Of a DNA stretch of 32,570 bases, positions 2,297-32,570 are shown in pieces. Positions within the stretch are counted from its first letter, which is position 1. Each line of letters opens with the position of its first letter. The stretch covers positions 1 to 32,570 of the IMG/VR virus record IMGVR_UViG_3300006916_000189; one strand, given 5' to 3'. The translations under genes were made by a program, and so were the position numbers. The notes under the pieces are model-generated. The model saw only the letters and a list, made by a program, of their open reading frames with translations, searched no databases and was not told where the DNA came from. The DNA comes from a virus.

Positions 2297-2584
2297 TTAC
2301 GTTCCAGGTTTGTTATAATTTATTTTTAATTTTTGTCTTATTTTTTGTAAAAATTTACTGCCTTCAGTTTTTCTCGCATGAACATTATGTTCGTCTTTTT
2401 TACTAGGTTTAAATATAATACCGTCTTTCTTTTTAATTAAAGTTCCTTGTACGTCAGGCGCGTCATCAAAACTCAAACCACCTTTTAATTTCTTAGTTCT
2501 ACCGTATTTTTTCCAAGCGTTAACATTGTACTTTGATCCTATCTCTTCGTTAGGATCTTTCTTAAATTTTCTTATTCTTCCCAT
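2297..2584 (-). CDS. Small basic protein, unknown function
   Basis: A 95-residue, strongly basic protein (about 26 Lys/Arg against 10 Asp/Glu) with no membrane segment and no cysteine. It is the last gene of the - strand virion operon, starting 10 bases after the stop of the giant gene, behind an A-rich leader (AAAATAAAAAAA). Two stretches are nearly pure charge (RIRKFKKD at the start, LQKIRQKLK near the end). Such a protein could bind nucleic acid or be a packaged accessory, but this is inference from charge and position only. I do not recognise the family. Confidence 0.75.
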   Translation of the reverse strand: MGRIRKFKKDPNEEIGSKYNVNAWKKYGRTKKLKGGLSFDDAPDVQGTLIKKKDGIIFKPSKKDEHNVHARKTEGSKFLQKIRQKLKINYNKPGT

Positions 2585-2594
2585 TTTTTTTATT

Positions 2595-5500
2595 TTACCA
2601 GCCGGTGTTCATTCCACCACCTTTTGCGTTTGAAAAACCTGCATTAAACACGTTTTTATTTGGTGATTTTTTCTTTGCTTTTTCATTTTTAGCTTGATCA
2701 GTTTCCCAAAGAGGAATCAAGCCTAGACCAACTCCTATTTTTTCTAACACTGGTCCTTCTTTCGCGTACATGTATTCTAGTATTTTAAAGTTATCATATA
2801 GAGCTCGCTTCGCTGGAAAACCTGTAGTTCCTTGAATTATATTAGCAGCAGCTGATACAGATGGCGCATTTAATGGATCGTCTAATGCACTTTTAAATCT
2901 ATTTTTCTTCATCTCTGCCTGCTTCAAGTCATATGCTGCGTTGTCGAATAGATCAAGTTTTTGACCTATGAAAGGCATTGACCCTAAAAGTTCATCACCT
3001 GCTCCCTCATAATCTTTAAACATCCCATTTTTATTAGATACATATTGATTATAGAATTTAACTCCAGCTTCTTTACCACCAAGTAATATCTTTCCACCAA
3101 CACCAAAACCTGTTAGCAAGCCATCTACCTCCGCATTAAACATTCTCCAAGCTATATCCTCAATCTCTCCTTCTTCAGTGTCGTCGCTAATCAACCAACT
3201 AGTAAACCCACTTGTTAATGCTCCATAAACACTGTTCTGTAGCATACCGTAATTAAATACTTTACCTAGTATTTCTTTTCTGGTTTGAGGATTTTCTATG
3301 TTCTCTATGTCTTCTAAGCTTTCAATATTCCAACCTTTTAAATACTTGTTTAACTCTATATTTGCTTGCCTCAAGTTCTGCATAGAAGTAGTTCCATAAC
3401 TTAGAAAAGCTTTACCACCTACTTTTGTTTGTATACTTCCTGTTTCTACAGGATCACTAGATTGCTGAGTTCTACTACTTAGCTCTTGCCACATTAAATA
3501 TGCTTCGCCGTGAGCTTTTTCATAACCTTCTACTTTCTTATAGTCCTTGATGTTTTCTCCAGTTTTGATATCGTATAATTGACCATTGACTCTATAGTCT
3601 AATCCTAAAAGTTCATTAGTCTTGTTCATCATATAAGTAGTTCCAAACCCATTTGCTTGAGCCCATGAATCCATACCCTTATTTAATACTAAACCTTTTT
3701 GTAGTAACAGGTTCAAGATCGCTCCAGCTTTATTAGTAGATCCATTTAAAGCATCTGTTATTTCAGCATCACTTATATTGATTTTATTACCTAATCTTCT
3801 CGATTTAAGATAATCAGAATTATATAAGTCAATAGTCTCTCTCCAGTATCTACCTTGATGAGCAAAAGCTTTACCAGCTTTCCATGGAGTGTTTCCAGGC
3901 TCAAACATGTAATTTAAATTAGACTGTCCTTGTCTAACAGCACTCCCAACGTTTAAAGCTAATTGAGCTGTAGTCGTTTGATTAACTATATTATTCAACC
4001 CTTGTAGTCCAAAGTTATCACCTATAGGTCTATTACTTCCAGACTTCATTCTCCTTAACATATCTTCTAAAGCAACTCTATATTTAGTTCCGTATGCTAC
4101 TTCTAACTTGTTTAAATTTTCCGGAGTATAATAAGAATCAACAAAGCTAGTATATCCGTTAAGATCTTGATAATACTTTCTAGCGCTTTTATTAACAGTC
4201 ATCATAGCATCACTTTGTATGTTACCCATAACCCAATCAGCTGAGTTTGGCATGTGATATCCTGCAACGCCACCAACTCTTACTAGTTCATTAGCCATTG
4301 ATCTTACATCAGGATTAACTGATATAAATTTATTTATTCCATCAAGATCTCTTTTACTTAAACCAGGTACATCTTCCATACCTTGTTGTTTCCAAGCTTG
4401 TATTCTAACGGCGTCTTGAACTGTCCAGCCGTTAAAAGCTTCGTTATTCAGTGTTTTGTTAAAATCTTTATATGTTTTAAAAACAGTATTAAGACCAGCG
4501 TTATAGTTTCTTTCAAAAGTGTTTTGATCAGAAACAGATCTTTTATAAGTATCGTAAGATTTCTGTTTAACATACTCATAGTCCATCAGTCCTTGCTTAC
4601 CTTTACCAGCCATAGTTTGAATTAACTGTTGGTAATTGTAAGTGTTGTATGGTAATAGTTTTCTCCCTGATGGAGATATTTTTTTAACATTAGCATCCGA
4701 ATACCTTGCATCAGCCTTTACACCAGAGCTATGCTGTATCATGTTATCGAATTGATTCTGCTCTATAGAAGTAGAACTTGCTTTAATAGGTCTAGCTCTA
4801 TCTGTTAAACCTAACTCTTTTACTCTTTTAGAAAATGCTGCTGTGTTAGGAGCTGCATCCTCTAAAAATACAAAGTCATTATAACCAAGAGAAGCAAACA
4901 CATCTACGTAATTAGCTTTAGCTGCTGGATCAGAACTTTCTACTCCAATGTAATGGTCTAAAGGTACTTTAAATTTTCCACCACTTAATTGTTCTAACCT
5001 ATATTGAAAAGCTAGAGCTGTAGCCATATCTCCCTTTCTAGATGTTAAGAAATATAAGCCATCCCATCCATCTTTTCCTTGTTTAATATTTTTATCATAT
5101 ATTCTTTCTACTACTTTATAAGCTTTTGCTTTTTTAGCATTTTTAAAATCACCAAACTCTCCAAAGCTAAATAAATCAGCCGCAGTGTAACTAGGATTTT
5201 CTTGCTGAGCTTCTAATAAATACTTACCAGCATCCTCATTAAATTCTTTAGGGTTTATTTTAAATGTTTTACCATCAGGCATTGTTACATCTATCCTACT
5301 ATCAGTATATAAAAGTGAATCATCTATATCTGACAAATATACTTTCTTTTTTGGCGCATTAGTTCTATTAGCCATTTCAATAGCTTTTTCTCTAACTTTT
5401 ATTTGATTGTAAACCGCAGAAGAAGGTTGTATTTCTAGTGGAACAGCTGAATAGTTTATACCATTTTCTTCAGCTAGCTTTTGTAAATTTAATTCACTAT

Positions 5501-8500
5501 CTTTGTGAACTTTATTTATCTCTGGATTTCCTGCTATTTTATTTACTGTAGTTAATTCTGTTTCCGCAACTTCAGTAGGATTTTCAGGAACTTCTAGCTT
5601 GTTTTCAGGGATATATTCGTTTTGAACTATATTCTGAGAGATTGTATTTACATCTTCTATACGCTTCAGATTTTCCAAAGATCCTTCATTTATTTCATTG
5701 GAATTTTTATTTATTTCTTCAACATATGGTTTTATAATATTACCTACTCCTTCTTCAACCAATGTGCTTTTTAAAGGAGATCCATTTCTTAAATCAATTT
5801 GAATGTCTAATGGTTGTAAATAATTAGTACCTGATAATCTTTCGATACTCCATGGCATTGTTGCGAATTGATTGAGATCAGTGTCATAAGGACCAATTTT
5901 CATCGCTCCTCTATTAAGCGGGTTATCAGCCCATCTTTGTGCATCAACAGTTATAATACCTTGTTCTGCTCTGTCAAGTAACTTAGTTAACTCTTGTTTG
6001 AATTTTTTAGGATTATTTTTATATCTAACCATTAGATCCATAACATTGCCGTTGACAACACCCATTGGTATATGATGCTCAGAGTGTGTTCTTTTGAAAG
6101 CATATGGATCATAGCCTTTGCTCTCTAGGTTTTTAGTTGGAACATAAGCACCTAACTCTAAAGGAGCAGTCGTAATCGTGAAACTTCCTTTAGCAATACC
6201 TTCACCTATATTAGTCTGCATACGCATCCAAGAGAAAATATCATTAGCTATTCTACTCTCTTTTTGCTCTACTGTTACTCCAGCTTTCTTTTCAGCAGGA
6301 GTTAAAGTTACATTACTTAATTGATTATATAACGATGTATACATTCTATTTGACAATGCTTTGTTTGCAGCTATTGTCTCTTCAAAAGTGTAAGGCTTAT
6401 CCGTATAAGGATTAATCCCTTGTTTAGTTAGCCTAGTCTTCAACATAGTAGTATATTCCTTTATATCAGCAGGATCTGTAATTCTACCGTTTTCTAGTTT
6501 TCCTTCTAAAGCTAGTTTCTGAAAGAAACCTTGGATACTTGTTGGCTTATACTTGTATTGTTTAACTCCATCTATTTCTACAACTACTTTTTCTCCTTTA
6601 ACTAAAACTGGATCAGCTTGTATCTTACCAGGACTAGCTATAAAAAACGCGTCAACATCTTTAGGTAGTTTACCCTCGCCTGTGACTCCAATTTCTCCAG
6701 GCATATTCCAAGCATTAGCTATTTTTTCTGATTTATTTTCACCTGGAATCCAAGTACCTAGTCTTTTACTTGTACCGTCTGGACCTATTATTTTAAAATT
6801 ACCAAAACCCATACTCTGATACAGAGCTTGAGTTTCAATAAGACCAGCCATATTTACATCTGTTAAAGCTCCATAAAGAGTGTTACCAAATTGAGCTTTT
6901 TCTATAGGATTATCAGCCCAACTACCCTTACCACTTTGTGTTCTAGCATTCAATATTATATGACCACTTCCATATTTTTCGTATCTTTCATTTAAATCTT
7001 GAGCTAATCTAGGGTAATTGCCACCTTCTACCAAATCACCTTCTAGTTTTTCTACTTTATTATCAGAGTATATACTTCTATTTATGGCATCATCTATTAT
7101 ATTAAGCAACTCTATATCGTTATCTTTAAGAGTTTTATTTAGCTTAGAATAATTTATGTCTACATACTCTAGTATATCTACTTTATTTTTCTTTGATGGA
7201 TCTAAGTTTAAAATATCTCTAGCTAAATTACCTACTTGTTCCGTAGCTTCTGATATTGTTAGTAAACCAGTAGCATCATTAGTTGTTGAAGCAAATTTAA
7301 GATTTGGATCTCTTTTTAATCTAAAGCCAATCGAGTTCAAAGAACCTTCTAGCATAGCATCAGCTTTATCTGCTGGATTTAAATCTCTATATATGTCATA
7401 AGACTCCGCAATGTCTATAGATTCTGGAACACCATTCTTATTAGTGTTAACTTTTACAACAGTTCCATCAATAGGTCTTTCTAATCCATTAACAAAAACA
7501 CTTTTACCATCTGCTGAAAAATATACACCACTCTTTGGTATATCTCCTGATTTAATCTTTCTATCTGATAATACTTCTTTTTCAACTGGATACTTAGTGT
7601 AAGTGTATTCTCCTTTAGAGTTAATCTTAGGAACAAATCCACCAGTATTAGCTGCGCTGCTTTGAGCGTCCATAGCTATATCTCTACCCATGCGTATTGC
7701 TATAGCTCTAGCTAAAGCATCTTTTCTAGTACCTTTAGTAGATGGAGCTTTGCCTTCAGCGTTTACCCATGATAGTATTTCTTCAATAGTAGGTATCTTC
7801 TTTTTAAACTGTAACGGTTGCGATTTACCTTTAACTGTTTCTATTCTAATTTGTTTACCATCAGCGCCTAATTTAGCTTCATAAAAAGGAAACATATTAA
7901 ACTTAGTCAAAACATCTAAATCTATATTGTTTAGTAAGTCTTGATTATTTTTAATAAAATCAATATACTTATTACCGCCACCCATTTTTTTCTTTATGTC
8001 AGCTGTAAATTTATCAACTACAGTTTTATCTATATTGTTTATGTCATTTTGTTTTCCTTCTCCTTTACCTATTGATCCACCAGTTATTTTTGTATCAAGA
8101 GTAGTATTACCCATACCTAATCTAACAACTGCATCTTGAACTTCACCAAGTTTCTCTGTATCTATTACGCCTGACTTAGTGTAAATTGTTCTACCTTGCT
8201 CACCCGGTTTTTGAGTTTCTATTACTATTTCTGGTTGACTTGATTCTACAATGTTAGATTCGTTAGCCATACTTTTAGTATCATCAGTAGACTTAAATTG
8301 GCTGATTTCACCTTCAAAATGATCTTCAAAAGCTTTATAACTTCTTTTCTTTAACTGAGCATTTATATAACCGTTAGGATTTGTGTTTTCAACATTACCT
8401 TGAAGATATGTTTTAACAATACTAGTTAAACCCTGCTTTTCTCCAAACATGTATTGCATGTATTCTTCAGTGTTAAACAACTTTTTAGCTCCAGGCAAGT

Positions 8501-11500
8501 TATATCTTCTGTCTATATCATCTGCTCTAGATTTTATTAAATCTACGTATCTTCTACCCATTGGCCCTAACGCGCTAAGGTTATTTGGATTATAAGAACC
8601 AACCATTTCAAAAGCCACTGTTAATGGACTATCTCCATCTGCTACTCTTTGTTTACCTTCAATAGATAAAACGTTGACTGCATTTTGAGGATCAGACAAT
8701 AACTTATTAATACTTTGAATACCTAAGCTATTATCTTTTTTAACAGATATATCAGCTTCCTTGTTATTTATGTTAAAGTTTTTTAATTTATCTCTAGCTT
8801 CCATTAATTCTTTGGTAGACATATCCTTAAAACCTTTATTAATACCAATAGATGGTACTCCTTCAACTAACATAGTTTGAACTTTAGCAACTTCTTGTGG
8901 TTCAGCTTTAGCTTTACTTTTAGGTATTAAACTTAAAGCAAGCTTTTGAGGATTTGTTGTGGCAGAATAATTACCTGAGGAAGTTTCTAGCTCTACGTCT
9001 TCTGATAAATATTGGTCATTTTCTAAAGCTTTAAGTCTTTTAAACTCTTGAATAAAGTTATCACTCTTTTTACCTTTTTCAGTAGTGATACTAAAATCTT
9101 TTATAAAATCATACACATGCTTAGGATTACTCCAATCCATGTTTTCAAATTCACTTTTACCAGTACCTAATACTCTTTCTATAGTTGAACCTAAAGATTT
9201 AAACAAACCTTTATTTTTCTCAAAAGTTATTTCATTTTTCCCAACCATGTCATGGAATATGTTTATCCATTCAACAGTGTTAGGATTTTCATTAAATGTT
9301 TTTCCACCATTATGTTTTTCAACAGTGTTTTTTAATTTAATAAAAGTTAAAGGATCAATATCACCTTTTATGTTTTCCACAAATCCCTCTACAATTTTAT
9401 CTTGAGATTCCTTAGATATATTGTTCCAAGCTTTATCAGTAATCTTATGTGTTATTTCATGAGTAAATACTGTAGGAGCATTTATTTTCTTAGCCCACAT
9501 TTCATTTATAATCATACCTCCGCCATCTACAGAAACACCTTCTTTCCATGAAACTTTTCCATCAACTTTCTTACCGTCCATGTAAACTTCACCTTCACTA
9601 CTCATGACTAGACCTTTAGAACCTTTGACCTTATCAACATCTACGACGTCTTCAATAATCATTTCTCCTTTGTCAGTTATAAACTTAGGTTTATACTCAT
9701 CTCCTCTTTCAGAAAATTCTTTTGGTCCAAGAACTTCTACTTCCATTTCTTCCCCACCTATATCTTCAGTATATTCTTTACTTAGTTTCTTTGCTCTTTC
9801 TACTTTTAGATTATTTATAGCTTTTTGAACGGTTAACATTTTCATTTCCTTAGCTTCTAATTCTACTAAAGTTTCTTTAAGTTGTTGAATCTCAAGTTTA
9901 TCAGCTGCTGAAGCACCACCGTTAAGCTTGTCTTGAGCTTTAACTTTAGCCTCTATACTAGCTATTTTACCTCTAAGTTGTGCATTGCCATACGATAGGT
10001 TAATGAAAGTGTTTCTTTTACCACCTTCACCTAATTTTTCTCCTTTAGGAAATAATCTAGCGTTTTGTACTATTGCTTCAAAAACAGGTTGCTGTGCTTT
10101 AAGAGTTTGTAGTACTCTATCTACTTGACCCTGTACATTAGGGCTAGGGTTTAATTCTTTAAATTTAGCAGAAAAAGCTTCATTCAAAGAATTAGCAGAT
10201 CCAAGAACATCTATGTCTGTAGCGGTTAAATTACCAGACTCCATTCTCATAAGCATAGGAACGCTCTCGTCGTTTATATAAGTGTTTAGACCATTTAGTG
10301 CATCTTCCATGTTTAATATGGTCTGATACGTTTTAAAACCAGTTATGTTATTATAAGCTTTATTTAGTTTTTCTAATTTTTTTAACTGTGCTTCATTTAC
10401 TATGATAGTTTTTCCAGTAACAGGATGCTGAGTTTTAAAACCATCATTTAAAGGACCACTATAGTCCATAGTTTTTTCACTCTTAATATTTCTTGCATCA
10501 TTAAAGATAGGTCTTTCAATACTATTTTGATTTAATACTGATGGAACTGTTTCTTCTCCCTTTCCTAGTATTTCGTTAACCCCACGCTCTTTGCTCTTTT
10601 CTATTTCTAGTGGATCTAAAGCGTCTATATCTTCCGCTGTTAATGTTTTCTTACCTTCTGGAACTAAATCAGTTTGTTTTAGACTTTTTATTACTTCAGT
10701 AGATGTTTTACTTTTCTTAGCTAAGTTCTTCATCAAAGCCGTTTTCCATTCACCTATCGTGGCTTGTGGATTAATATTTTTTAAGAAAAACATTTGAAGA
10801 TATGTATCAGACAAACTTTCAAAAGACAGAGCATTTAGATTAACTCCTTCACCTAGCACTAAGCTTTCTACTTGTCCACCTCCAGCAATTGCCACTGTTG
10901 ATACTGCAGGAGCTACTAATTGTCTTACACCGGTTGCTGTTAAAGGATTTCTTTGAAACCCTTTAGCTAACATGTTTGATATTTTGTCCGGCTTTACTAA
11001 ACTTAAGCCATGAGAATACTTTAAAAAATCTTTATATAATGAGTTTATTGGTGCAGAACCTAGTACAAAAGCGTAGTTTATATCTTGCTCATCTGAAGAC
11101 ATCATGTTATAACCACCTATAGTAGCAGCCTCTTGCACGCCCATTCCCATCATTTGCGTCCATCTTCTACCAAACATAGATCTACCCATCTTAGTTTGGT
11201 TTAATCCAGTTGTAATAAAAGAACCTAAACCTTCAGTCATACCAGCAGAACTAGATAGTCTGCTAACTGCTCCACCAGCTAGATAAAATTTTCCAGCCAT
11301 TTCTATTATACCTGGAGCTGCTCTAAGAAATCTTTCACCATAACCAGGGTTGTCTATGTCTGCCATAGTATATATATCATCGTAGTCTGGCATTATACCA
11401 AACCTTTGATAACCTTCCATAGCAGCTTTTATTATTTCATTTGGCTCTGATATATTAGATGTACCCATAACATCTCTAGTACCAGCCGCTAAATAATCAG

Positions 11501-13607
11501 TCCAGTGCGATGTTTTTAGTTTTCTTTCATCAATATTTAACTCTAGAGCTTTATTGATAACCATAAAGTCTTGCAATGCCTTGTTATACCGCTGTGCTGC
11601 TAGATTATTTTTTCCTTCAGCTAAAACTAAACCTTCTGGTATAATACCAGTATTGTACATCTCCCTTAACTTTTCAAACAAATACTTTCTATCAACAATT
11701 TGATCTATGTCTGATTCTGGATCGTATCCTCCAACAAACGCTCCTGCAATTTGATCTCCCATACTCATATCTTCAGAGTACCTGTCAATAACTTTTAACA
11801 GTTGACCACCTAAATATACAACTTCACTCATAGCATCATGCCTAGCTCTTTCTAAATCTGCAGGTTCGCTATTAAAAGATAATGTTTGAGCAGCGAAATT
11901 AATACCGTTGTTTATCTCAATAGATTCCTTTGAAGCTTTGTTTTTATCTATAAATTGACCAGTAGTTAGATCATATAATTTAGGTGTACTTTTTAACCTG
12001 TTTTGATCCCAGTTTTCAGAGCTGTTAAAATCAAGTTCACTTCTTTTCTGATTATAACTTTCAACTAATTTCTGCTTTTGCTCTACCCAATCTTGTATAT
12101 TGTTCCTGTTAGCATCTGCATTTCTAAAATCTTCATTTGATTTAGCTTTTAATCCAATAGCTCTTATTTGATCCTGTATAGGCTTTAATTCTTCATGAAG
12201 CTTTTTATACTCACCTTTTAGATATGTTTCTGCTATAATATCTTCTTCATCTAATATTATGTTTTCAGCTTTTACTAGATTATTTAATTTCTTCTTATCA
12301 TCTATGTCTACGGTGTATTCATTCAATAAGTCGTAGTTACTCTTCAATACGTTGAATCTAGTCTTCTGACCACCTAGGTTTGCGTCACCATCTAATATCC
12401 ATTGATTTTGTGGTGCGTTATAAGCTTTAAGAATAGCATCGTTAAATTCTCCTATGTCTCCCACAGGCATAGATTTAGTAGTTCCATCTTTCATTACTAC
12501 GTTAACCTCATCATCAAAAAATCCATCTTCTTGACCCACTTGAGATACTTCTTTTATCTCTCCAGATCTTAATCCCTCTATGAGTTCTCCAAAACCAGAA
12601 GGCATTTCTACCTCTTGCCAGAAACTATCACCTTCACTTGTTAGTAAAGATCCATCATCAGGTCTAGATAAATAATTTAACGATGCTAAGCTATTCGTGT
12701 TTATAGAATTTGATCTATTAAATACAGTTTCTTCATCGTCTTGGAAGCTACCTGAAGTTGTTAATTCATCTGACTCTTGCCCATTTAATGTGTTTGTTAA
12801 TGTAGGTCTTAAGAAACTTTCAAAAGACGCTTGTTGTAGTAGTTCCTTTTGATTCGTTAAATACACACTTTCTAAATCAGCATCTTCATCCGCTATAGCT
12901 TTTCTCTTATCTCTATATGAACGCATCCACTCGTCATCTATAGGGTCTACTTCTTCTAAGTTATAGTTCTTCTCATATAGCTCTTGGTAACGTTGTCTTC
13001 CAAAATCGAAAGAAGGAGTTCTTGTTAATCTATAGTTTTGTTCTTCAAAAAACTCTCCGTTTTCTCCTGCTACTAAAGCATTAGCCATTGTAATAACACT
13101 ACTTGTCCCACCGCTAGCTATATCTAAATCTCTTTGTGTTGGATCACTAGGTTTTACATCTTCTACTAATTCAAATCTTTTTTTGCCTTGTGGGTTATAT
13201 ATTAAATAATTTTCCTTAGCAAATTTATATTCTTTTATTTTTTCTTTCGCTTCTTTACTACCTTCATTCTCCAGCATTACTATCCACTCATCCCAATTCT
13301 CTTGTTTCCAATCGTTCTTAGGAAGCTTTAGTAATTCCTTTACAGGTACTGGCTTGTCTTGCGTAGGAGTATCCAATGAAGTGTTTTCCGAATCGGAAAC
13401 CGTATTGACTGGTGCTGCAGGAACATTGGATTTTTCCTGAACACCTGTTGGCTTTCCCGACTCATCAGTGTTTTCATCATCAACTGCATTTTCTTCTAAT
13501 ACTATACTTGGGTTTTTAGCAAGTAATTCGTCTAATGAATATCCTTTTACGCTAGCAATATTACTTAATGCTTCAGTCGTATAAGTTTTGTCGTTAAATT
13601 TGTACAT
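2595..13607 (-). CDS. Giant 3670-residue polyvalent-type virion protein (LysM-like start, zincin, HAD phosphatase)
   Basis: One uninterrupted frame of 11 kb. Visible parts in order: residues 1-35, a LysM-like piece ending SLDELLAKNPSI; about 36-90, a Ser/Pro/Glu linker; about 755-960, Gly/Ala/Met-rich hydrophobic stretches; about 1150-1290, coiled coil; about 1350-1450, a zinc metallopeptidase motif HEITH (1383-1387) with candidate third ligand Glu1446; an EHH motif at 2510-2512 (RTHSEHHIP); about 2750-2945, a HAD phosphatase with DIDDS (Asp2760, Asp2762), LTSR (Thr2855) and FLEDAAPN (Glu2916, Asp2917); about 3000-3670, a long helical region with Gly-rich hydrophobic segments and a basic tail. 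Known phage polyvalent proteins combine such domains and are thought to be injected with the DNA; that role here is inferred from length, domains and position directly after the internal virion genes. No DxDGD RNA-polymerase motif was found. Start chosen at the first ATG, 12 bases after the preceding stop. Confidence 0.9.
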   Translation of the reverse strand: MYKFNDKTYTTEALSNIASVKGYSLDELLAKNPSIVLEENAVDDENTDESGKPTGVQEKSNVPAAPVNTVSDSENTSLDTPTQDKPVPVKELLKLPKNDWKQENWDEWIVMLENEGSKEAKEKIKEYKFAKENYLIYNPQGKKRFELVEDVKPSDPTQRDLDIASGGTSSVITMANALVAGENGEFFEEQNYRLTRTPSFDFGRQRYQELYEKNYNLEEVDPIDDEWMRSYRDKRKAIADEDADLESVYLTNQKELLQQASFESFLRPTLTNTLNGQESDELTTSGSFQDDEETVFNRSNSINTNSLASLNYLSRPDDGSLLTSEGDSFWQEVEMPSGFGELIEGLRSGEIKEVSQVGQEDGFFDDEVNVVMKDGTTKSMPVGDIGEFNDAILKAYNAPQNQWILDGDANLGGQKTRFNVLKSNYDLLNEYTVDIDDKKKLNNLVKAENIILDEEDIIAETYLKGEYKKLHEELKPIQDQIRAIGLKAKSNEDFRNADANRNNIQDWVEQKQKLVESYNQKRSELDFNSSENWDQNRLKSTPKLYDLTTGQFIDKNKASKESIEINNGINFAAQTLSFNSEPADLERARHDAMSEVVYLGGQLLKVIDRYSEDMSMGDQIAGAFVGGYDPESDIDQIVDRKYLFEKLREMYNTGIIPEGLVLAEGKNNLAAQRYNKALQDFMVINKALELNIDERKLKTSHWTDYLAAGTRDVMGTSNISEPNEIIKAAMEGYQRFGIMPDYDDIYTMADIDNPGYGERFLRAAPGIIEMAGKFYLAGGAVSRLSSSAGMTEGLGSFITTGLNQTKMGRSMFGRRWTQMMGMGVQEAATIGGYNMMSSDEQDINYAFVLGSAPINSLYKDFLKYSHGLSLVKPDKISNMLAKGFQRNPLTATGVRQLVAPAVSTVAIAGGGQVESLVLGEGVNLNALSFESLSDTYLQMFFLKNINPQATIGEWKTALMKNLAKKSKTSTEVIKSLKQTDLVPEGKKTLTAEDIDALDPLEIEKSKERGVNEILGKGEETVPSVLNQNSIERPIFNDARNIKSEKTMDYSGPLNDGFKTQHPVTGKTIIVNEAQLKKLEKLNKAYNNITGFKTYQTILNMEDALNGLNTYINDESVPMLMRMESGNLTATDIDVLGSANSLNEAFSAKFKELNPSPNVQGQVDRVLQTLKAQQPVFEAIVQNARLFPKGEKLGEGGKRNTFINLSYGNAQLRGKIASIEAKVKAQDKLNGGASAADKLEIQQLKETLVELEAKEMKMLTVQKAINNLKVERAKKLSKEYTEDIGGEEMEVEVLGPKEFSERGDEYKPKFITDKGEMIIEDVVDVDKVKGSKGLVMSSEGEVYMDGKKVDGKVSWKEGVSVDGGGMIINEMWAKKINAPTVFTHEITHKITDKAWNNISKESQDKIVEGFVENIKGDIDPLTFIKLKNTVEKHNGGKTFNENPNTVEWINIFHDMVGKNEITFEKNKGLFKSLGSTIERVLGTGKSEFENMDWSNPKHVYDFIKDFSITTEKGKKSDNFIQEFKRLKALENDQYLSEDVELETSSGNYSATTNPQKLALSLIPKSKAKAEPQEVAKVQTMLVEGVPSIGINKGFKDMSTKELMEARDKLKNFNINNKEADISVKKDNSLGIQSINKLLSDPQNAVNVLSIEGKQRVADGDSPLTVAFEMVGSYNPNNLSALGPMGRRYVDLIKSRADDIDRRYNLPGAKKLFNTEEYMQYMFGEKQGLTSIVKTYLQGNVENTNPNGYINAQLKKRSYKAFEDHFEGEISQFKSTDDTKSMANESNIVESSQPEIVIETQKPGEQGRTIYTKSGVIDTEKLGEVQDAVVRLGMGNTTLDTKITGGSIGKGEGKQNDINNIDKTVVDKFTADIKKKMGGGNKYIDFIKNNQDLLNNIDLDVLTKFNMFPFYEAKLGADGKQIRIETVKGKSQPLQFKKKIPTIEEILSWVNAEGKAPSTKGTRKDALARAIAIRMGRDIAMDAQSSAANTGGFVPKINSKGEYTYTKYPVEKEVLSDRKIKSGDIPKSGVYFSADGKSVFVNGLERPIDGTVVKVNTNKNGVPESIDIAESYDIYRDLNPADKADAMLEGSLNSIGFRLKRDPNLKFASTTNDATGLLTISEATEQVGNLARDILNLDPSKKNKVDILEYVDINYSKLNKTLKDNDIELLNIIDDAINRSIYSDNKVEKLEGDLVEGGNYPRLAQDLNERYEKYGSGHIILNARTQSGKGSWADNPIEKAQFGNTLYGALTDVNMAGLIETQALYQSMGFGNFKIIGPDGTSKRLGTWIPGENKSEKIANAWNMPGEIGVTGEGKLPKDVDAFFIASPGKIQADPVLVKGEKVVVEIDGVKQYKYKPTSIQGFFQKLALEGKLENGRITDPADIKEYTTMLKTRLTKQGINPYTDKPYTFEETIAANKALSNRMYTSLYNQLSNVTLTPAEKKAGVTVEQKESRIANDIFSWMRMQTNIGEGIAKGSFTITTAPLELGAYVPTKNLESKGYDPYAFKRTHSEHHIPMGVVNGNVMDLMVRYKNNPKKFKQELTKLLDRAEQGIITVDAQRWADNPLNRGAMKIGPYDTDLNQFATMPWSIERLSGTNYLQPLDIQIDLRNGSPLKSTLVEEGVGNIIKPYVEEINKNSNEINEGSLENLKRIEDVNTISQNIVQNEYIPENKLEVPENPTEVAETELTTVNKIAGNPEINKVHKDSELNLQKLAEENGINYSAVPLEIQPSSAVYNQIKVREKAIEMANRTNAPKKKVYLSDIDDSLLYTDSRIDVTMPDGKTFKINPKEFNEDAGKYLLEAQQENPSYTAADLFSFGEFGDFKNAKKAKAYKVVERIYDKNIKQGKDGWDGLYFLTSRKGDMATALAFQYRLEQLSGGKFKVPLDHYIGVESSDPAAKANYVDVFASLGYNDFVFLEDAAPNTAAFSKRVKELGLTDRARPIKASSTSIEQNQFDNMIQHSSGVKADARYSDANVKKISPSGRKLLPYNTYNYQQLIQTMAGKGKQGLMDYEYVKQKSYDTYKRSVSDQNTFERNYNAGLNTVFKTYKDFNKTLNNEAFNGWTVQDAVRIQAWKQQGMEDVPGLSKRDLDGINKFISVNPDVRSMANELVRVGGVAGYHMPNSADWVMGNIQSDAMMTVNKSARKYYQDLNGYTSFVDSYYTPENLNKLEVAYGTKYRVALEDMLRRMKSGSNRPIGDNFGLQGLNNIVNQTTTAQLALNVGSAVRQGQSNLNYMFEPGNTPWKAGKAFAHQGRYWRETIDLYNSDYLKSRRLGNKINISDAEITDALNGSTNKAGAILNLLLQKGLVLNKGMDSWAQANGFGTTYMMNKTNELLGLDYRVNGQLYDIKTGENIKDYKKVEGYEKAHGEAYLMWQELSSRTQQSSDPVETGSIQTKVGGKAFLSYGTTSMQNLRQANIELNKYLKGWNIESLEDIENIENPQTRKEILGKVFNYGMLQNSVYGALTSGFTSWLISDDTEEGEIEDIAWRMFNAEVDGLLTGFGVGGKILLGGKEAGVKFYNQYVSNKNGMFKDYEGAGDELLGSMPFIGQKLDLFDNAAYDLKQAEMKKNRFKSALDDPLNAPSVSAAANIIQGTTGFPAKRALYDNFKILEYMYAKEGPVLEKIGVGLGLIPLWETDQAKNEKAKKKSPNKNVFNAGFSNAKGGGMNTGW

Positions 13608-13619: not shown

Positions 13620-15497
13620 TTAAGCGAAGTTTTGAGCTTCGGTTTCGTAATCAGTTTCTTGTGCTATATAATTAGGACCGCCTAAGGCAGATTTAAGTTG
13701 CAGTATTTTAGCAGCGTTAGCAGGTGTTTCCACTTGATCTAACATAGCTTTTAAAATAGCATCCTTGTTCATGTTTATTTGTTCTTTACCATTCTTCTTA
13801 GCATTGTATAAAGATTCATTTGTAACATTACCAACTGCTTCTGGTAAATATGTATCGCCAGTAGCGGCATTACCAGTGTTAACTCCCCAATCTACTATAG
13901 CATCTACTTGTGCAGCGCTTGGATTAGTTATGTTTGTACTGTTCTTTGAGTTGTACGAGTCTAATATTGACTCTGCTTTTAATCTTTTGAATTCAGCTCC
14001 AGAAACATAACTTCCGGTACCACTCTTAGAGCTTGCTGTTAAAAACTTACCAAGTTCTGTAGCTCCAGTAGCTCCTTGTAAATTAGCGTAATATCTTGCT
14101 AATTTATCTAACTCGTCTACAGTATACTTTCTGTCTGGCTCGCCCCAACCAACACCATCTTTACTAGCAGCCATAGCATTACCATTTGTTGTTATATTTT
14201 TAGCACCACCTTGAAGCGGGGCAAAACCTGCGATACCTTCTACAGTAGCTCTTTGACTGATAGCTTGAGCACTACTTGAAGTATTGTTAGCTTTATTAAC
14301 TATAGCTACTAGTTCGCTATTTTGTTTACCTTTAGTTTCTATTAATCTTGTAGCTAACAAATCAGCTGCTCTATTGCGCATATCATCACTACCATCAAAT
14401 ACAGCTTCATCAGAGCTTGTTCTTAATAATTGCCAAAAGTTTTGGTCAATAGGCATTAACTTAACATTTTGAGGTGATGTAACTTTTTCTCTAAGAGCTT
14501 GATTTGCATCATCATAACTTTTTAATGTTTGAGTGGACTTAACAGTTGCAGATTCATTTACAATCTTCTGTGTGGTAGCATTGTAATCTACAGAGAACTT
14601 ATCCCATTGCTGATCTATTTTTTTATCAAAAGTATCTACATCCACAGTATCCCATAAAGTATATCCTTTATTGGCTCCATTTGCTAATAATTCATTATAG
14701 TTAATAAAAAGCTCTTCCATTTCAGGAGGATCATTACTCGCATCATAGTAAGGGTTTTTATAGACTAAACCCACTTTAGACCCATTAGAAACATACTCCA
14801 TTACTCTTCGTCCATTAATAACACCACCATTACTATATGCTATGTTAAAACCTCTTTGCATTTCTGACTGACCTTCTAAAGAAGCTCCTGTTGTTGCATA
14901 AGTTTTAGGTATCATTCTGCTTTCACCGCTATCATATACGAAAGAATCTTCCCAGTTTTGTACGGTTTTATTAACTATACCATTACCGTTATTTCCTAAT
15001 TCTAATATTGTTTGTATGTTTGCTAGTTCTTGATTATATTCTGCCGTTCCAAAAGGTAAAGAAGCTAGAAGATTAGTTTGGTTTTCCAAATGCTCAACCC
15101 ATATTTGACCCATACCGCCTTGTAGATCTTCTTTTGTATCTTGTTTCCCATCATTATCAGCATCTAAATTTGTAGTTCTTACTTTTTTAGCACCAGATGC
15201 TGCATCAGTATATATCTCAAAATTACCATAGGTTTTTGGTGGTATAATTGTTGTACCAACTTTTTTCTTTAAATCAAATAAGTCTTTTTGCTTTTTAGCA
15301 TTTTCTCTAGCTAACCTAGCTTCAGACTTAGCCAAAGCGGCTGCTTCTTGCTTAGCAATTAAAGCATCTCGCTTAGCTTTCTCAGTTAAACTAGCTTTAA
15401 TATTAGCACTTAATTTCTCTGTGCCTTTGCTGATAGCAGCAGATGCTAACCCAAATCTCTTATCAATAACAGCGCCTGGCGCTTCGTAAGTTCCCAT
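13620..15497 (-). CDS. Putative internal virion/ejection protein with EF-hand-like loop
   Basis: A 625-residue protein, placed between an internal virion protein and the giant protein, so probably an internal or ejected structural component. Residues 25-80 are a highly charged Ala/Lys/Glu helix likely to form a coiled coil. Residues 112-123 (DADNDGKQDTKE) have Asp at positions 1, 3, 5 and 9, Gly at 6 and Glu at 12, the ligand pattern of an EF-hand calcium loop, although position 8 is Gln instead of a hydrophobic residue. The C-terminal half is Ala/Asn/Thr-rich and helical. No catalytic motif was seen and I do not recognise a named family. It starts with ATG 18 bases after the preceding stop, behind an A/T-rich leader. 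Confidence 0.82.
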   Translation of the reverse strand: MGTYEAPGAVIDKRFGLASAAISKGTEKLSANIKASLTEKAKRDALIAKQEAAALAKSEARLARENAKKQKDLFDLKKKVGTTIIPPKTYGNFEIYTDAASGAKKVRTTNLDADNDGKQDTKEDLQGGMGQIWVEHLENQTNLLASLPFGTAEYNQELANIQTILELGNNGNGIVNKTVQNWEDSFVYDSGESRMIPKTYATTGASLEGQSEMQRGFNIAYSNGGVINGRRVMEYVSNGSKVGLVYKNPYYDASNDPPEMEELFINYNELLANGANKGYTLWDTVDVDTFDKKIDQQWDKFSVDYNATTQKIVNESATVKSTQTLKSYDDANQALREKVTSPQNVKLMPIDQNFWQLLRTSSDEAVFDGSDDMRNRAADLLATRLIETKGKQNSELVAIVNKANNTSSSAQAISQRATVEGIAGFAPLQGGAKNITTNGNAMAASKDGVGWGEPDRKYTVDELDKLARYYANLQGATGATELGKFLTASSKSGTGSYVSGAEFKRLKAESILDSYNSKNSTNITNPSAAQVDAIVDWGVNTGNAATGDTYLPEAVGNVTNESLYNAKKNGKEQINMNKDAILKAMLDQVETPANAAKILQLKSALGGPNYIAQETDYETEAQNFA

Positions 15498-15515: not shown

Positions 15516-16286
15516 TTAACCACCTTGCATCGAAGCTCCTAATGCTGTTCCAGTTATATCCATAAGACCTCCAAAAGCATTTCCCATTGAAGTCATTCCA
15601 TCGGCTTGGTATTGAGCTTGCTGTGCTTTAGTATTATCTAACAATGCTTGATTTCTATTTAGAGCTTGCATTGTCCTAGCTTCTTCTTGTTGGAAAACCC
15701 ATTGTTCTCCAGCTACCTTAGCTTGTTGTAATCTTTGAGCTTCAGCTTGTTTGGCGGATTGTAATTGTTGTTCACCTTGAGCTCTAAGTTTCTCATTGTT
15801 AACTTCTTGCTGTTCAATACTCGCAGCAACGCTTCTTTTACTTGCAGCAGCTGCGTTAGCTAAAGCAGTAGCACCTCCAGCACCTGTTCCACTAGATCTT
15901 AAAGTATCTAGAGTATTTGCCAATGCTACATCTGTTTCATCCATTTGAATTTGAGCTGCTTGCGTAGCGACACTTAGGTTTCCAAAAGGATTGCTAAGCA
16001 TATCAGAAGTATCTTTAATAGCGTCGTACACATTTGTAATAGCTGCTCTGTTATTTTCTAGTTCTCTTATTTGGCCTTGATAGTTTAATATTTCACCATT
16101 CAAAGCGTTAGCTTTGCCCATAGCCATTATCCCTACTCCAATTTGCCCTGCCGCTCCAATAGCTCCGATGCCCATAGCTTTATTTATAGCTTGCTGTTCT
16201 GGTGTGTTTTGACCAGGAACTTGAAGATTTCCTGGAGTAGATTGGCTAAGTGTTGCTTTTAAAGCTGTTATAGTGTTTAGATTCAT
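15516..16286 (-). CDS. Internal virion protein, T7 gp14-like in type
   Basis: A 256-residue Ala/Gln-rich protein. A Gly-rich hydrophobic segment lies at about 38-57 (MGIGAIGAAGQIGVGIMAMG), suitable for membrane insertion; a conserved-looking block with GTGAGGATALANAAAASKR follows in the middle, then a Gln-rich coiled coil (about 155-235) and a second Gly-rich hydrophobic end. This pattern is typical of small internal virion proteins of podoviruses that help form the ejection channel; sequence homology to T7 gp14 itself is not claimed. The ATG overlaps the stop of the nozzle gene by four bases (ATGA), which implies coupled translation and similar dosage. Confidence 0.82.
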   Translation of the reverse strand: MNLNTITALKATLSQSTPGNLQVPGQNTPEQQAINKAMGIGAIGAAGQIGVGIMAMGKANALNGEILNYQGQIRELENNRAAITNVYDAIKDTSDMLSNPFGNLSVATQAAQIQMDETDVALANTLDTLRSSGTGAGGATALANAAAASKRSVAASIEQQEVNNEKLRAQGEQQLQSAKQAEAQRLQQAKVAGEQWVFQQEEARTMQALNRNQALLDNTKAQQAQYQADGMTSMGNAFGGLMDITGTALGASMQGG

Positions 16287-28615: not shown

Positions 28616-31018
28616 TTATGGGCTTAAATTGTCTAACCCAAAACCACCTATGTCGTCATTTCCATTTGATTCAAAATTTGTAGGAACTCCGTCTGTTTGT
28701 CGTTGTTCTATCATTTGGCTTTGTTGAGTGGCTTGTATTTGTGTTCTTTTGTCTTTACGATCTTCTATAAATTTTTCTCTCTCCTTGTCTACACCAACTT
28801 TTGCTTGAGCTAACTGCATGTTAAACTCAAATTCTTTTTCCATTAACTGTTGTTTTATTTGACCTTCTTTTTCTAATCTCTGTATCTCGAATTGAGACTT
28901 AGCTTGTTCAAATTGTACATTAGTTTGGTTTAGAGCTTGTGCTTTTTGCATTTCTGCTGCTGCAGCTCTTTCTGCTGCTTGAGCATTAGCTTGTGATTGA
29001 GCTTGTATATTAGCTTGTTGTTGTTGTTGATCTTGAGCTTGTTTCTTTAGTCTTCTTTGTTTTAATACTTGATTAGCTAGCTTTAGGTTTTTTATCTCTC
29101 TTAAATCTATAGCATCTTCTAGAAATATTTGACCAGACTGCAATGCTACTTGTATATTTTGCTCTAGCATTTGCTTTTCATCCTCGTCTGGTTCTAGTTC
29201 TAAGAATATGCCAAAGTCATGTAAGTTTAAATGTATTAACTCATGTAAAGTCTCTGTATTAAACTTAGATATACTTTTAGTTAAAACCTCTTTTGTTAAT
29301 GGAAACTTTATGGCATCTGCAGCTCTTAATGCTATATTTTCACAAGATCTTAATGTTAAGTATAAACTAGACTGTAATATATGTCTTGTTGCAGTATTAG
29401 AGTTTGCTGCTGCTAATTTCTGTAAACCTACTAAAGAATTAGGATCAGGAGAGCTACCATCTCTAGCTTCGTTTAATCCGGTTACATCCCTAATCATTTG
29501 TAAATAATACTGATAAGTCTGTATGAGTGAAGCTATTTTAGCTTGACCACTAGAAGATTGTAGTTCCTGTATTGGAACTTTACCATGGTTTAAGTCTCCA
29601 TCTTGCGTTAAAGATCTACCTACTATACTACCAGTCTGGAAGTACATATTCAACGCTTCTTGAGGATTATAATTAGTTCCATTTCCTAAGTCAACTTCAG
29701 CTAAACCATCTACATCTAAATAAACTCCATCAGGAGTTACCCTAGACATCACTTGCTGCAGCTTAAGGTGGGTTAACTGAATCATATCAGCAAAACTAGT
29801 AATTCTAGAAACTAGTGATTCTATACGTCCCTTATACATTCTAGGAGCGCATATGCTATAGTTCATATTTACTTTTACACTATTAGCAAATGGTCTAGTC
29901 ATATTTTCAGCTAACCTCCAATCAAGCATCATCTCCATACCTAGTATTTTAGCGCCGCTGTATAACACTTCTATACTTCTAGATACTCTATCAAAATTAT
30001 CATTTGGTTCAGGAGAAAAAGTATCTGGCTTTTCTAAAGCTTTTTCTAATCCATTATCAGTATATTTTATTTTAAAAACCTGATCCATATAGGATTTCCA
30101 CTCGAAATATAATACTTGAACAGTTTGATTATCGCTTCTACCGTTCCAGTTTCTAGTATATTCAGTATTACCTTGATACTGTTGTATCTTTTTTAATTCT
30201 TCCTCACTTAACCATGGAAATTCTTTTTTTATTTCTACTAAAGGAATAGATTTAACTTCCCCTACGTAGTATATGTCTTCAAAATTAGGATCTTCCGTAT
30301 ATGAATAAACAATATTTGCAGGATCTACGTACTCAACAGTAACACCGTTAGATTTATTAAAACTAGTTTTAACACATCCTATACCAAGAACAGCTAAATC
30401 ATAATTTAATCGCCTATTAGTTAATTCGTATTTGTTATTAGCTAGTACATTTGATATTAATTCTTCTTCAGCTATTTCTATAGACTGCTTATAATTTAAT
30501 TGCAAATGTAATTTAATATCTTCTTCATTTTCTAAACCTAATCTAGACGCTTCACCACTACTTATATCAACTCCAGTAGATTGTTTTATGGCAGCTAATA
30601 ATTCCCTTTGCCTTACGTCTTTTAATAGTTTATTCGCGTATGAAGTTCTTTTAGTATTAGAAGTAGGATCTTGAGCGTAAGCATTAATAGCATAACTACG
30701 GCTTGATATACCATTTACAACGATATCAACAAACTTAGGTATTACAGGGACGTTTTGCCAATCTAAATTTAAATATGATAAGTCACCGTTTATAGACAAT
30801 TCATCTTTATATTTCTGTATAGGTTGTTCTCCCCTAGCATAAAGTCTTAGTCTGTGAAAATTATTATAATTCATTATAAAACGCTCTCCACCTCTATTGT
30901 TTCTAAACCATTCCCCTTCGATAGCTCTAGCTACTCTAAGACCATAATCATTTGTTAATTTTTCCTCAGTCGAAACTACTTGATCTGGAAATGAACTATT
31001 AGTACTGCTATAAATCAT
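28616..31018 (-). CDS. Portal protein
   Basis: An 800-residue protein that forms the dodecameric ring through which DNA enters and leaves the head. Evidence: position directly after the terminase gene, length typical of podovirus portals, and the block VTGLNEARDGSSPDPNSLVG followed by LQKLAAANSNTATRHILQ (about 505-545), which I recognise from portals of marine and crAss-like phages; VEYVDPANIVYSYTEDPN (about 228-245) is another portal-type segment. Residues about 655-760 are a Gln/Ala-rich coiled coil, probably the barrel or an extension into the head. The C-terminal 40 residues are Gln-, Asn- and Gly-rich. The ATG follows the terminase stop with no gap (TAAATG), indicating coupling. Confidence 0.9.
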   Translation of the reverse strand: MIYSSTNSSFPDQVVSTEEKLTNDYGLRVARAIEGEWFRNNRGGERFIMNYNNFHRLRLYARGEQPIQKYKDELSINGDLSYLNLDWQNVPVIPKFVDIVVNGISSRSYAINAYAQDPTSNTKRTSYANKLLKDVRQRELLAAIKQSTGVDISSGEASRLGLENEEDIKLHLQLNYKQSIEIAEEELISNVLANNKYELTNRRLNYDLAVLGIGCVKTSFNKSNGVTVEYVDPANIVYSYTEDPNFEDIYYVGEVKSIPLVEIKKEFPWLSEEELKKIQQYQGNTEYTRNWNGRSDNQTVQVLYFEWKSYMDQVFKIKYTDNGLEKALEKPDTFSPEPNDNFDRVSRSIEVLYSGAKILGMEMMLDWRLAENMTRPFANSVKVNMNYSICAPRMYKGRIESLVSRITSFADMIQLTHLKLQQVMSRVTPDGVYLDVDGLAEVDLGNGTNYNPQEALNMYFQTGSIVGRSLTQDGDLNHGKVPIQELQSSSGQAKIASLIQTYQYYLQMIRDVTGLNEARDGSSPDPNSLVGLQKLAAANSNTATRHILQSSLYLTLRSCENIALRAADAIKFPLTKEVLTKSISKFNTETLHELIHLNLHDFGIFLELEPDEDEKQMLEQNIQVALQSGQIFLEDAIDLREIKNLKLANQVLKQRRLKKQAQDQQQQQANIQAQSQANAQAAERAAAAEMQKAQALNQTNVQFEQAKSQFEIQRLEKEGQIKQQLMEKEFEFNMQLAQAKVGVDKEREKFIEDRKDKRTQIQATQQSQMIEQRQTDGVPTNFESNGNDDIGGFGLDNLSP

Positions 31019-32570
31019 TTATTTTTTAATTTTTGAAAGAAATCCTTCATTGTCGTATTTTTTAAACTTTAAACCAAGTTTAGGTATAATTCTATCTGCT
31101 GTGGGTTTGTATTTATTCTTGTTACAAGCCATTATAGCTAACCCTGAACTTATTGAAGCATCATGCTTTGTTCTATTGTTTATATTAAATATAGCCCAAT
31201 CTTCTAATGTCTTTTGTAGATACATATCCCCATATCCATGTTGTAATAAACCTACATGCTCTTCTATATAACTTTCAATAGCTGCTGCATGAGCTTGTTT
31301 TATATCCTCACTTGAATTTGGTATTCCACCAACTTCTCTTTCTGTTGTTGAAAGTTTGTTCCAAACTTTGTCAGGTCTATTCATTGAAAAACCTCTATAA
31401 CCTCTTCGTTTTAAATAGTACAATAATCTTGGCTTATTGTTTTCAGCAAGAATAGGCATTCCATAAAACACTAATGACATTAAAACGTCTTCAAAAAAAG
31501 TTTCTGCTGTTTGGGGTCTTGATATGTATTCTAAAAAGAAATGATTAGGCGGTACGTCTTCCATACTGAATTTAGTCAAACCATGTAAAGCTCCATTAGA
31601 ACCTTTACCGTCTACTGTTCCTGATATATCATAACTATCACAGCCGAAAGCACCAACGTGTTCATTACCAGGGTATTTTACCCCATTCTTTATAATCACT
31701 CTATTTTGGAGATTTTTAGGAGGAACCCACGATATTAGAAATCTACCGTTATTATTTGGATAAAAAATAACCTCAGTATCTTTAACACCGTTTCTCCATT
31801 GGAAACTTCCTCGTGTTACATTAGCTAAGTTATTTACTTCTTCATTGTAATCTATCTGTTCATATATTTTAACTAGATTAAATAAAGATTGTTTTGCTTC
31901 ATCTCTAAAAGCATGTTGTTCAGTTCTTGGAAATTGTCTATAGTATTCATTTAAACTATCTTGATCTGACTTTAAACCATCTACTTCATTTTCCCAGTGC
32001 TCAATTACTCCTGTTTCAATTTTGATACCATCAACTCCGATTGTTTTATCTTTTGGCGTAGTGAATACAGGTAGTCCAAAAGTATCCATGAATCCTTCGT
32101 AGTTCCACTCCATAGGGATGAAAAGAGAGTAGAGTCCAGAACTTGTCTGTCCATTTCTATTTCTTTTTGTAGCGTCTGAATTGTAGTATAATTTTTTGAA
32201 GTTGTTTCCACCTTTGTCTAATGCGTTTGAGGTCGATCCCATCATACACTTACCTACGATTCTACGTCCTAGTCTTAGTGTTGTTTTCGTAACCCTCCAG
32301 TTATTTAATATATTATCAGGTCTTTCCCATTTACCACTCTCATCATGAGCTAGTATCTTTAGCTTCTCACCATCATAAGAGTTATCTCCTGTGTTTTTCC
32401 AATCTATTGTTGTGTCTAATCCTTCTAGTTCTGCTAGTTTGACATTGTCATCTAGTTTACGTCTAGTAAGTTTTGAAGCTGGGACTCTATATGCCAGTTC
32501 GGTCTTAGGACGATCCATACCATCCTGGATCGGCTTGAAGAAAAACGGATAGTTAACGGATATCGGGACA
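31019..32570 (-). CDS. terL: Terminase large subunit, C-terminal part (Walker B to nuclease)
   Basis: The packaging motor ATPase and genome-cutting nuclease. The frame is open to the right edge: upstream of the ATG at 32518 the codons continue as NYPFFFKPIQDG without a stop, so this ATG is internal and the Walker A part lies outside the window. Numbering from that ATG: Walker B ILAHDE with Asp59/Glu60; coupling motif around CMMGSTSN (91-98); the RNase H-like nuclease acids Asp294 (FGCDSYD), Glu359 (LAEN) and Asp453 (KHDASISSGLA). All three nuclease acids are present, so the enzyme appears intact in this part. The C-terminus is basic. The stop is immediately followed by the portal ATG. A small terminase subunit is not in the window. 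Confidence 0.93.
   Translation of the reverse strand, partial: VPISVNYPFFFKPIQDGMDRPKTELAYRVPASKLTRRKLDDNVKLAELEGLDTTIDWKNTGDNSYDGEKLKILAHDESGKWERPDNILNNWRVTKTTLRLGRRIVGKCMMGSTSNALDKGGNNFKKLYYNSDATKRNRNGQTSSGLYSLFIPMEWNYEGFMDTFGLPVFTTPKDKTIGVDGIKIETGVIEHWENEVDGLKSDQDSLNEYYRQFPRTEQHAFRDEAKQSLFNLVKIYEQIDYNEEVNNLANVTRGSFQWRNGVKDTEVIFYPNNNGRFLISWVPPKNLQNRVIIKNGVKYPGNEHVGAFGCDSYDISGTVDGKGSNGALHGLTKFSMEDVPPNHFFLEYISRPQTAETFFEDVLMSLVFYGMPILAENNKPRLLYYLKRRGYRGFSMNRPDKVWNKLSTTEREVGGIPNSSEDIKQAHAAAIESYIEEHVGLLQHGYGDMYLQKTLEDWAIFNINNRTKHDASISSGLAIMACNKNKYKPTADRIIPKLGLKFKKYDNEGFLSKIKK

Follow-up and report, generated by a model that had tools for sequence, protein, structure and literature searches.

Analysis of a 3670-residue protein encoded by an uncultured virus, of its operon and of its relatives suggests that this giant is the largest of three ejection proteins of a Bacteroidota podovirus, delivered in the manner of phage N4 and carrying swappable enzymes; we put the probability of this reading at about 0.7. 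The window, meaning the whole stretch of DNA analysed, is the entire IMG/VR record IMGVR_UViG_3300006916_000189 (32,570 bases), a genome fragment, and its sequence points to a marine Bacteroidota podovirus with a portal of the Pervagoviridae/Pachyviridae/Elemovirus kind. The first-pass annotation of the window had proposed an ejected protein of polyvalent type from a podovirus of this phylum, a proposal now supported by synteny with proteins verified by MS/MS, by motifs and folds, and by hundreds of relatives. These results delineate a family of ejection-type giants, present in several hundred or more contigs from uncultured viruses, and place a Pnkp-type phosphatase in proteins that are probably injected, which makes testable what phages carry besides DNA.

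The giant gene and the virion operon

The giant gene, a single minus-strand frame of 3670 codons, runs from 13607 to 2595. Given its base composition, a stop-free run of this length has a probability of about e^-329. The GC fraction at its three codon positions is 0.46/0.34/0.20, and 385 and 551 stops interrupt the two alternative minus-strand frames over the same interval; open-frame and codon-GC statistics agree with the frame as originally drawn at 2595-13607. The minus-strand operon runs from the terminase-like gene and the portal to a 1725-aa protein, the 590-aa structural protein, the 256-aa protein, the 625-aa protein and the giant, a layout resembling that of N4, with portal, capsid and tail genes ahead of the last three. 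The features of the operon are:

31019-32569, minus strand, cut by the window end: terminase-like gene, assigned from gene order
28616-31018, minus strand: portal protein (phrog_6547, E 1e-142; matched by 87 phage records)
16283-18055, minus strand: 590-aa structural protein (phrog_14478, virion structural protein, E 9e-43)
15516-16286, minus strand: 256-aa protein, putative first ejection-type gene (homologue upstream of 110 of 116 giants; phi38:1 gp099)
13620-15497, minus strand: 625-aa protein, putative second ejection-type gene (gene order; position of N4 gp51 and phi40:1 gp100)
2595-13607, minus strand: giant 3670-aa protein, putatively of ejection type (open frame, coding signal, operon-end position, relatives)

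Within the giant, the following regions were delimited:

13497-13607, minus strand: N-terminal family motif, residues 1-37 (iterated profile; start of about 30 giants)
11025-11924, minus strand: N-terminal core of type W, residues 562-861 (in 17 of 129 giants)
9063-9512, minus strand: predicted zincin module, residues 1366-1515 (invariant ligands, structure model)
9447-9461, minus strand: HExxH motif HEITH, residues 1383-1387
9270-9272, minus strand: predicted third zinc ligand, the invariant Glu E1446
7653-8468, minus strand: middle block, residues about 1714-1985 (phmmer matches in up to nine relatives, a minority)
5862-6293, minus strand: EHxxP region, residues 2439-2582, with EHHIP at 2510-2514 (matches in relatives L044 and L045)
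4674-5387, minus strand: HAD phosphatase domain, residues 2741-2978 (motifs; Pnkp-like fold; phrog_415 in relatives)
2706-4640, minus strand: conserved helical C-terminal block, residues 2990-3634 (constant part of the family)

Among the large genes of the virion operon the giant comes last, and in that sense its placement at the operon end stands; it is not strictly the last gene, because a small basic ORF of 95 aa (2297-2584, minus strand) directly follows it. Beyond this ORF lies a convergent gene that matches B12-dependent ribonucleotide reductase (E 6e-36).

Searches with the whole 3670-aa protein against Pfam and PHROGs gave no significant match, and searches of the PDB by sequence with the giant and its profiles gave chance-level matches only. 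A weak match to ADP-ribosyltransferases (E 0.08) covers residues about 2132-2179. The start of the protein had been described as LysM-like, a description that must be dropped: the first 90 residues match neither LysM nor any other Pfam family even at E 10, and the family motif of about 37 residues stands there instead. By iterated profile, this motif is absent from all other ORFs of the examined loci. Nor were the proposed hydrophobic segments borne out, the highest 19-residue Kyte-Doolittle mean in the giant being 1.23, below that of a usual transmembrane helix; the N-terminal core is still less hydrophilic than the remainder of the chain. Among 129 giants, this core is of type A in 90 and of type W, as in the window, in 17, never of both, and comparison of the two types revealed no detectable relation between them.

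An uncultured family and its cultured counterparts

A first family scan from the single giant sequence yielded no confirmed relative; the way to relatives led through the neighbouring 590-aa gene and afterwards through the C-terminal block of the giant. Viral contigs were scanned twice, with patterns taken from the HAD domain and then with patterns taken from the C-terminal block (the best 80 matches of each scan were read), which gave at least 511 and at least 584 confirmed stretches, respectively, the latter in IMG/VR. The 116 complete, non-identical giants range from 2094 to 3697 aa (median 2840). Because 110 of these 116 have a homologue of the 256-aa protein upstream and all 29 long contigs of the family carry a phrog_6547 portal, we consider the family to be one viral lineage. 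In contig G028 (that of L251; 26644-28850), numerous stops, including all three codons, interrupt the portal frame, which may be a pseudogene or poorly sequenced. Matching contigs from metagenome-assembled genomes look mostly misbinned, their names ranging from Aliivibrio to Woesearchaeota, but Flavobacteriaceae, Cryomorphaceae and Saprospiraceae bins are among them.

In the nearest relative found (contig G001/L012), the probable major capsid protein is 97% identical to that of the window and the 590-aa protein 89%. Identity falls to 33% in the 625-aa protein, and the giants share 90 N-terminal residues at 47% and one stretch at 21%, with weak similarity by profile in the core and the zincin. 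Thus, in a sister contig (L012/L022) with a capsid protein at 97%, the giant is almost unrelated to that of the window. Judging from these sequences, the genes that would be ejected appear to be the fastest changing of the operon, and this rapid divergence, set against 97% in the capsid gene, argues for the ejection reading.

The 87 phage records found by the portal search include Manatee Spring podovirus (51% identity), Maribacter phage Panino (45%), 68 Flavobacterium elemo phages (42%), Cellulophaga phages of the Calle/phi38:1 type (34%) and Baltivirus (28%), and Tenacibaculum phage Gundel (26%). Every portal-matching phage inspected has a giant gene, encoding 3859 aa in Manatee Spring, 1829 in Panino, 3694 in the elemo phages, 1691 in the Calle/phi38:1 type, 1871 in Baltivirus and 2482 in Gundel. 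The gene stands at the end of the operon in all of them but Gundel, whose copy is found just upstream of the terminase gene. Pairwise comparison of these giants with that of the window showed no similarity at E 10, searches of isolate phages with the window giant and with the conserved block of a typical relative gave no match, and the latter search, covering 50,697 phage records, detected no homologue. By sequence, then, the family appears to be without a close relative among the cultured phages searched. Part of the C-terminal block was found in Gundel (E 1e-37), and the type-A core is common to most uncultured giants and to isolate proteins verified by MS/MS.

The operon-end genes gp099, gp100 and gp101 of phi40:1 carry the record note 'annotation based on experimental MS/MS proteomics analysis', as do gp120, gp121 and gp123 of phi18:3. 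Because the syntenic phi40:1 and phi18:3 proteins are so verified, we infer that the window giant is likewise a virion protein and that it is packaged; the assignment is strengthened by the 256-aa protein, whose profile matches phi38:1 gp099 (E 8e-8). The same observations, namely the small-medium-giant gene order seen both in N4 and in the MS/MS-verified Cellulophaga phages, the type-A core shared between the family and verified isolate proteins, and a gp099 homologue upstream of nearly all giants, argue for ejection. Against this reading, the window giant has a W core and no direct similarity to the MS-proven proteins, whose cores are of type A.

The predicted zincin and the HAD phosphatase

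The zincin motif reported at first pass proved real. The expected number of HExxH motifs by chance in the window giant is 0.009, as it contains only 21 His, and an iterated profile started from the window found the module in 70 of 88 giants, with H1383, E1384 and H1387 invariant in 69 of 69 aligned relatives and E1446 in 70 of 70. Any HExxH occurs in 107 of 116 complete giants compared with a chance of about 0.004 per protein, although these are not 107 independent events because the sequences are related. In the structure model, the motif and the Glu lie on helices (mean pLDDT about 70, most of the core 80-95). Foldseek returned nothing under E 0.001 for the model, and in a second fold comparison lethal-factor catalytic domains (Z 4.0-4.3) were the sole natural zincins among the matches listed, a weak resemblance with no bearing on toxin identity. 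The module is thus a predicted zincin, mainly from its invariant residues together with a weak fold match. Of the two folds that had been anticipated, structure modelling gave a clear one for the HAD domain and a weak one for the zincin (Z about 4.3).

The invariant ligands would also suit an earlier suggestion for this protein, that of a precursor cut up by its own zincin; its effectors would be released inside the head or once injected. Self-cleavage has been suggested in print for polyvalent proteins, among which P1 DdrB is processed before packaging and was suggested to cut itself (PMC5512222). Yet nine of the 116 complete giants lack any HExxH, some of them with 2439-3547 aa, the module of L084 lacks the motif, and N4 gp50 is packaged whole despite its HExxH subdomain. 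Since relatives lacking HExxH stay giant, obligatory self-cutting is not supported; self-cleavage is possible, if rather doubtful, and is not needed to explain the data.

The HAD assignment was likewise upheld. Motifs I-IV (DxD, T/S, K, D) are all present (D2760, D2762, T2855, K2897 and D2917, with R2857 in addition), the domain occurs in 102 of the 116 complete giants, and the domain of the window, which is divergent from its relatives (about 30%), has kept the catalytic residues. Its model has a Rossmann-like HAD fold whose nearest solved structures are the 3'-phosphatases of T4 Pnkp and bacterial Pnkp1 (top three matches Z 11.5, 11.2 and 11.1), ordinary HADs scoring about 9 and below; Foldseek gave a weak match. 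Forty-nine of 55 family members match phrog_415, 'polynucleotide kinase', the match lying over the HAD in the one member whose coordinates were checked. Fourteen of the 116 complete giants and the metagenome-assembled contigs L120, L121 and L125 have the C-terminal block, which matches no Pfam family, but no HAD, so the HAD is a separable module. The EHH previously noted at 2510 forms part of an EHxxP motif that recurs 140-235 residues upstream of the HAD, and a looser [KRTSN]..EH pattern precedes the HAD in 51 of 78 relatives.

In some relatives (L106, L089, L109, L116 and others), a P-loop kinase is nested in the HAD between motifs I and II. A strict pattern found it in a single frame in 18 contigs, whereas the HAD of the window giant has no kinase insert. 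The nested kinase (10079-10771 in L106; also in contigs among L126-L154) shows similarity to AAA_33, Zeta_toxin and phrog_505 (polynucleotide kinase); in the PDB its top match is an entry annotated 'metallophosphoesterase', which we take to be the kinase domain of Clostridium thermocellum Pnkp, and T4 Pnk matches more weakly. In L087 an ART-PolyVal-like insert (9479-10021; E 0.0019, below the Pfam cut-off) occupies the same place as the kinase. The inserts were a P-loop kinase and an ART-like domain rather than inteins, which had been considered as their source. In L112, an insertion of about 140 residues, of unknown type, lies close to the HAD end (3868-4395). Contig IMGVR_UViG_3300025131_000066 (L154, L156) carries two kinase-HAD copies in opposite directions, possibly an assembly palindrome.

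Relative to T4 Pnkp and Pnkp1 (Z 9.9-11.5), which resemble the giants in that some of these have a kinase in the same chain, identity is 8-11%, the HAD sits in a giant virion-operon protein, and the kinase of the relatives is nested rather than in tandem. Because of the Pnkp-like fold, the phrog_415 profile and the nested kinase of relatives, nucleic-acid ends are the substrate we favour for the HAD. T4 Pnkp repairs tRNA cut by a host anticodon nuclease, and an injected HAD, with the nested kinase where present, might similarly heal nucleic-acid ends cut by host defences at entry. This proposal, for which the Pnkp-type fold, the phrog_415 matches and the likeness of the kinase to polynucleotide kinases speak, is tentative and on the unlikely side, because the window giant has no kinase insert, HAD folds act on many substrates and the nested kinase also resembles zeta toxin. 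Moreover, an Rnl2-type RNA ligase was detected, weakly, in only two of 29 long contigs; its general absence argues against a complete phage-only tRNA-repair pathway, and tRNA repair by a ligase of the phage itself is not supported for the Rnl2 type. The more specific idea that this marine lineage injects, with its DNA-ejection machine, a premade Pnkp-type end-healing enzyme (including the nested kinase in some members) for ends cut by host defences, with the HAD cap as a slot for exchanging injected effectors, we regard as speculative and improbable.

Proposed delivery and comparison with known systems

We propose that the phage head would contain the giant and that, at infection, this protein would be ejected into the host before the DNA or together with it, accompanied by the 256-aa and 625-aa proteins as N4 gp50 is by gp52 and gp51. 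The N-terminal core (residues about 560-860) may take part in envelope passage and the helical C-terminal block probably serves packaging and assembly, with the swappable enzymes situated between them. The HAD would be an active phosphatase, acting early in infection and most likely on nucleic-acid ends or a related phosphate ester, and the zincin an active metallopeptidase directed at the giant chain itself or at a host protein. The invariance of the zincin ligands and the HAD motifs argues for this enzymatic part of the proposal; the weak zincin fold match and the mostly absent end-repair RNA ligase count against it. A take-over or anti-defence role, raised at first pass, is possible.

Alternatively, the giant could be mainly a structural ejection or channel protein whose enzyme-like domains are dispensable or packaging aids. 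Cellulophaga phages do use smaller syntenic proteins (1691-1871 aa) with no zincin or HAD detected, relatives without HAD and without zincin exist, and the viral fold neighbours include, weakly, an internal virion protein. Nevertheless, in chains that otherwise change quickly, the active-site residues of the zincin and the HAD belong to the best conserved positions, making a mainly structural role unlikely.

The preferred reading, delivery of enzymes by an ejected protein, has its closest known parallel in N4 (Schitoviridae). The small, medium and giant proteins of N4 are ejected and form the envelope passage (PMC12633501), and gp50 requires its C-terminal region for encapsidation, its N-terminal region serving injection (PMC5512222); for crassviruses, ejection by partial unfolding has been modelled (PMC10172136). 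Both N4 and the window have a trio at the virion operon end (150/644/3500 and 256/625/3670 aa, respectively), and both giants combine an HExxH subdomain with a large helical C-terminal part. Unlike gp50, the window giant has no RNA polymerase match by sequence, carries a HAD phosphatase instead and has its zincin before rather than after the middle cargo. Homology of the blocks of the family to gp50 was not supported, the A-type core giving a weak hint at most and profile comparison being not significant. That the giant is a gp50-like virion RNA polymerase with a polymerase domain too divergent to see is very improbable: its size, operon place and plan of HExxH plus helical C-terminus are those of gp50, but no polymerase was found among PDB sequence matches of the giant or its C-terminal profiles and none of its blocks matches gp50 convincingly, so we do not class it with the N4-type polymerases.

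The giant fits the definition of a polyvalent protein (Iyer et al. 2017, PMC5512222), the injection part of that definition being presumed from synteny with MS/MS-verified virion proteins. Like polyvalent proteins, it joins unlike domains in one chain (here zincin and HAD), lies in a late or virion-gene context and has a zincin-like HExxH with a downstream Glu; relatives have ART-like and zeta/Pnk-like kinase inserts. By Pfam, the window giant has no match and the ART-PolyVal match of L087 stays below the cut-off; some viral fold neighbours are annotated as large polyvalent proteins. Differences are that no phosphatase or HAD is named in the main text of PMC5512222 and that the constant C-terminal block has no Pfam match.

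The giants of phi40:1 (gp101), phi18:3 (gp123) and the elemo phages share with the window the operon place and a homologous portal, and with most of the uncultured family the type-A core; the elemo giant also has the zincin module in common with the window family (E 2e-8). They differ in having no HAD and no conserved C-terminal block detected; giants of the phi38:1 and phi19:3 types have half the length and no HExxH, and the window has a W core rather than that of the Cellulophaga and elemo giants. The N-terminal core and the HAD cap emerge as sites where effectors may be swapped, and elemo phages on Flavobacterium and Gundel on Tenacibaculum offer cultured systems for parts of the giant. The elemo giant (9983-21067 in L005) contains a DUF3293 domain (Pfam E 1e-12, residues 1323-1392) just ahead of its zincin. 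The giant of ctfjg026, the closest annotated phage (741-12320 in L004), contains HExxH twice, as HEFGH at residues 1615 and 2500; the latter copy falls in a stretch common to Gundel.
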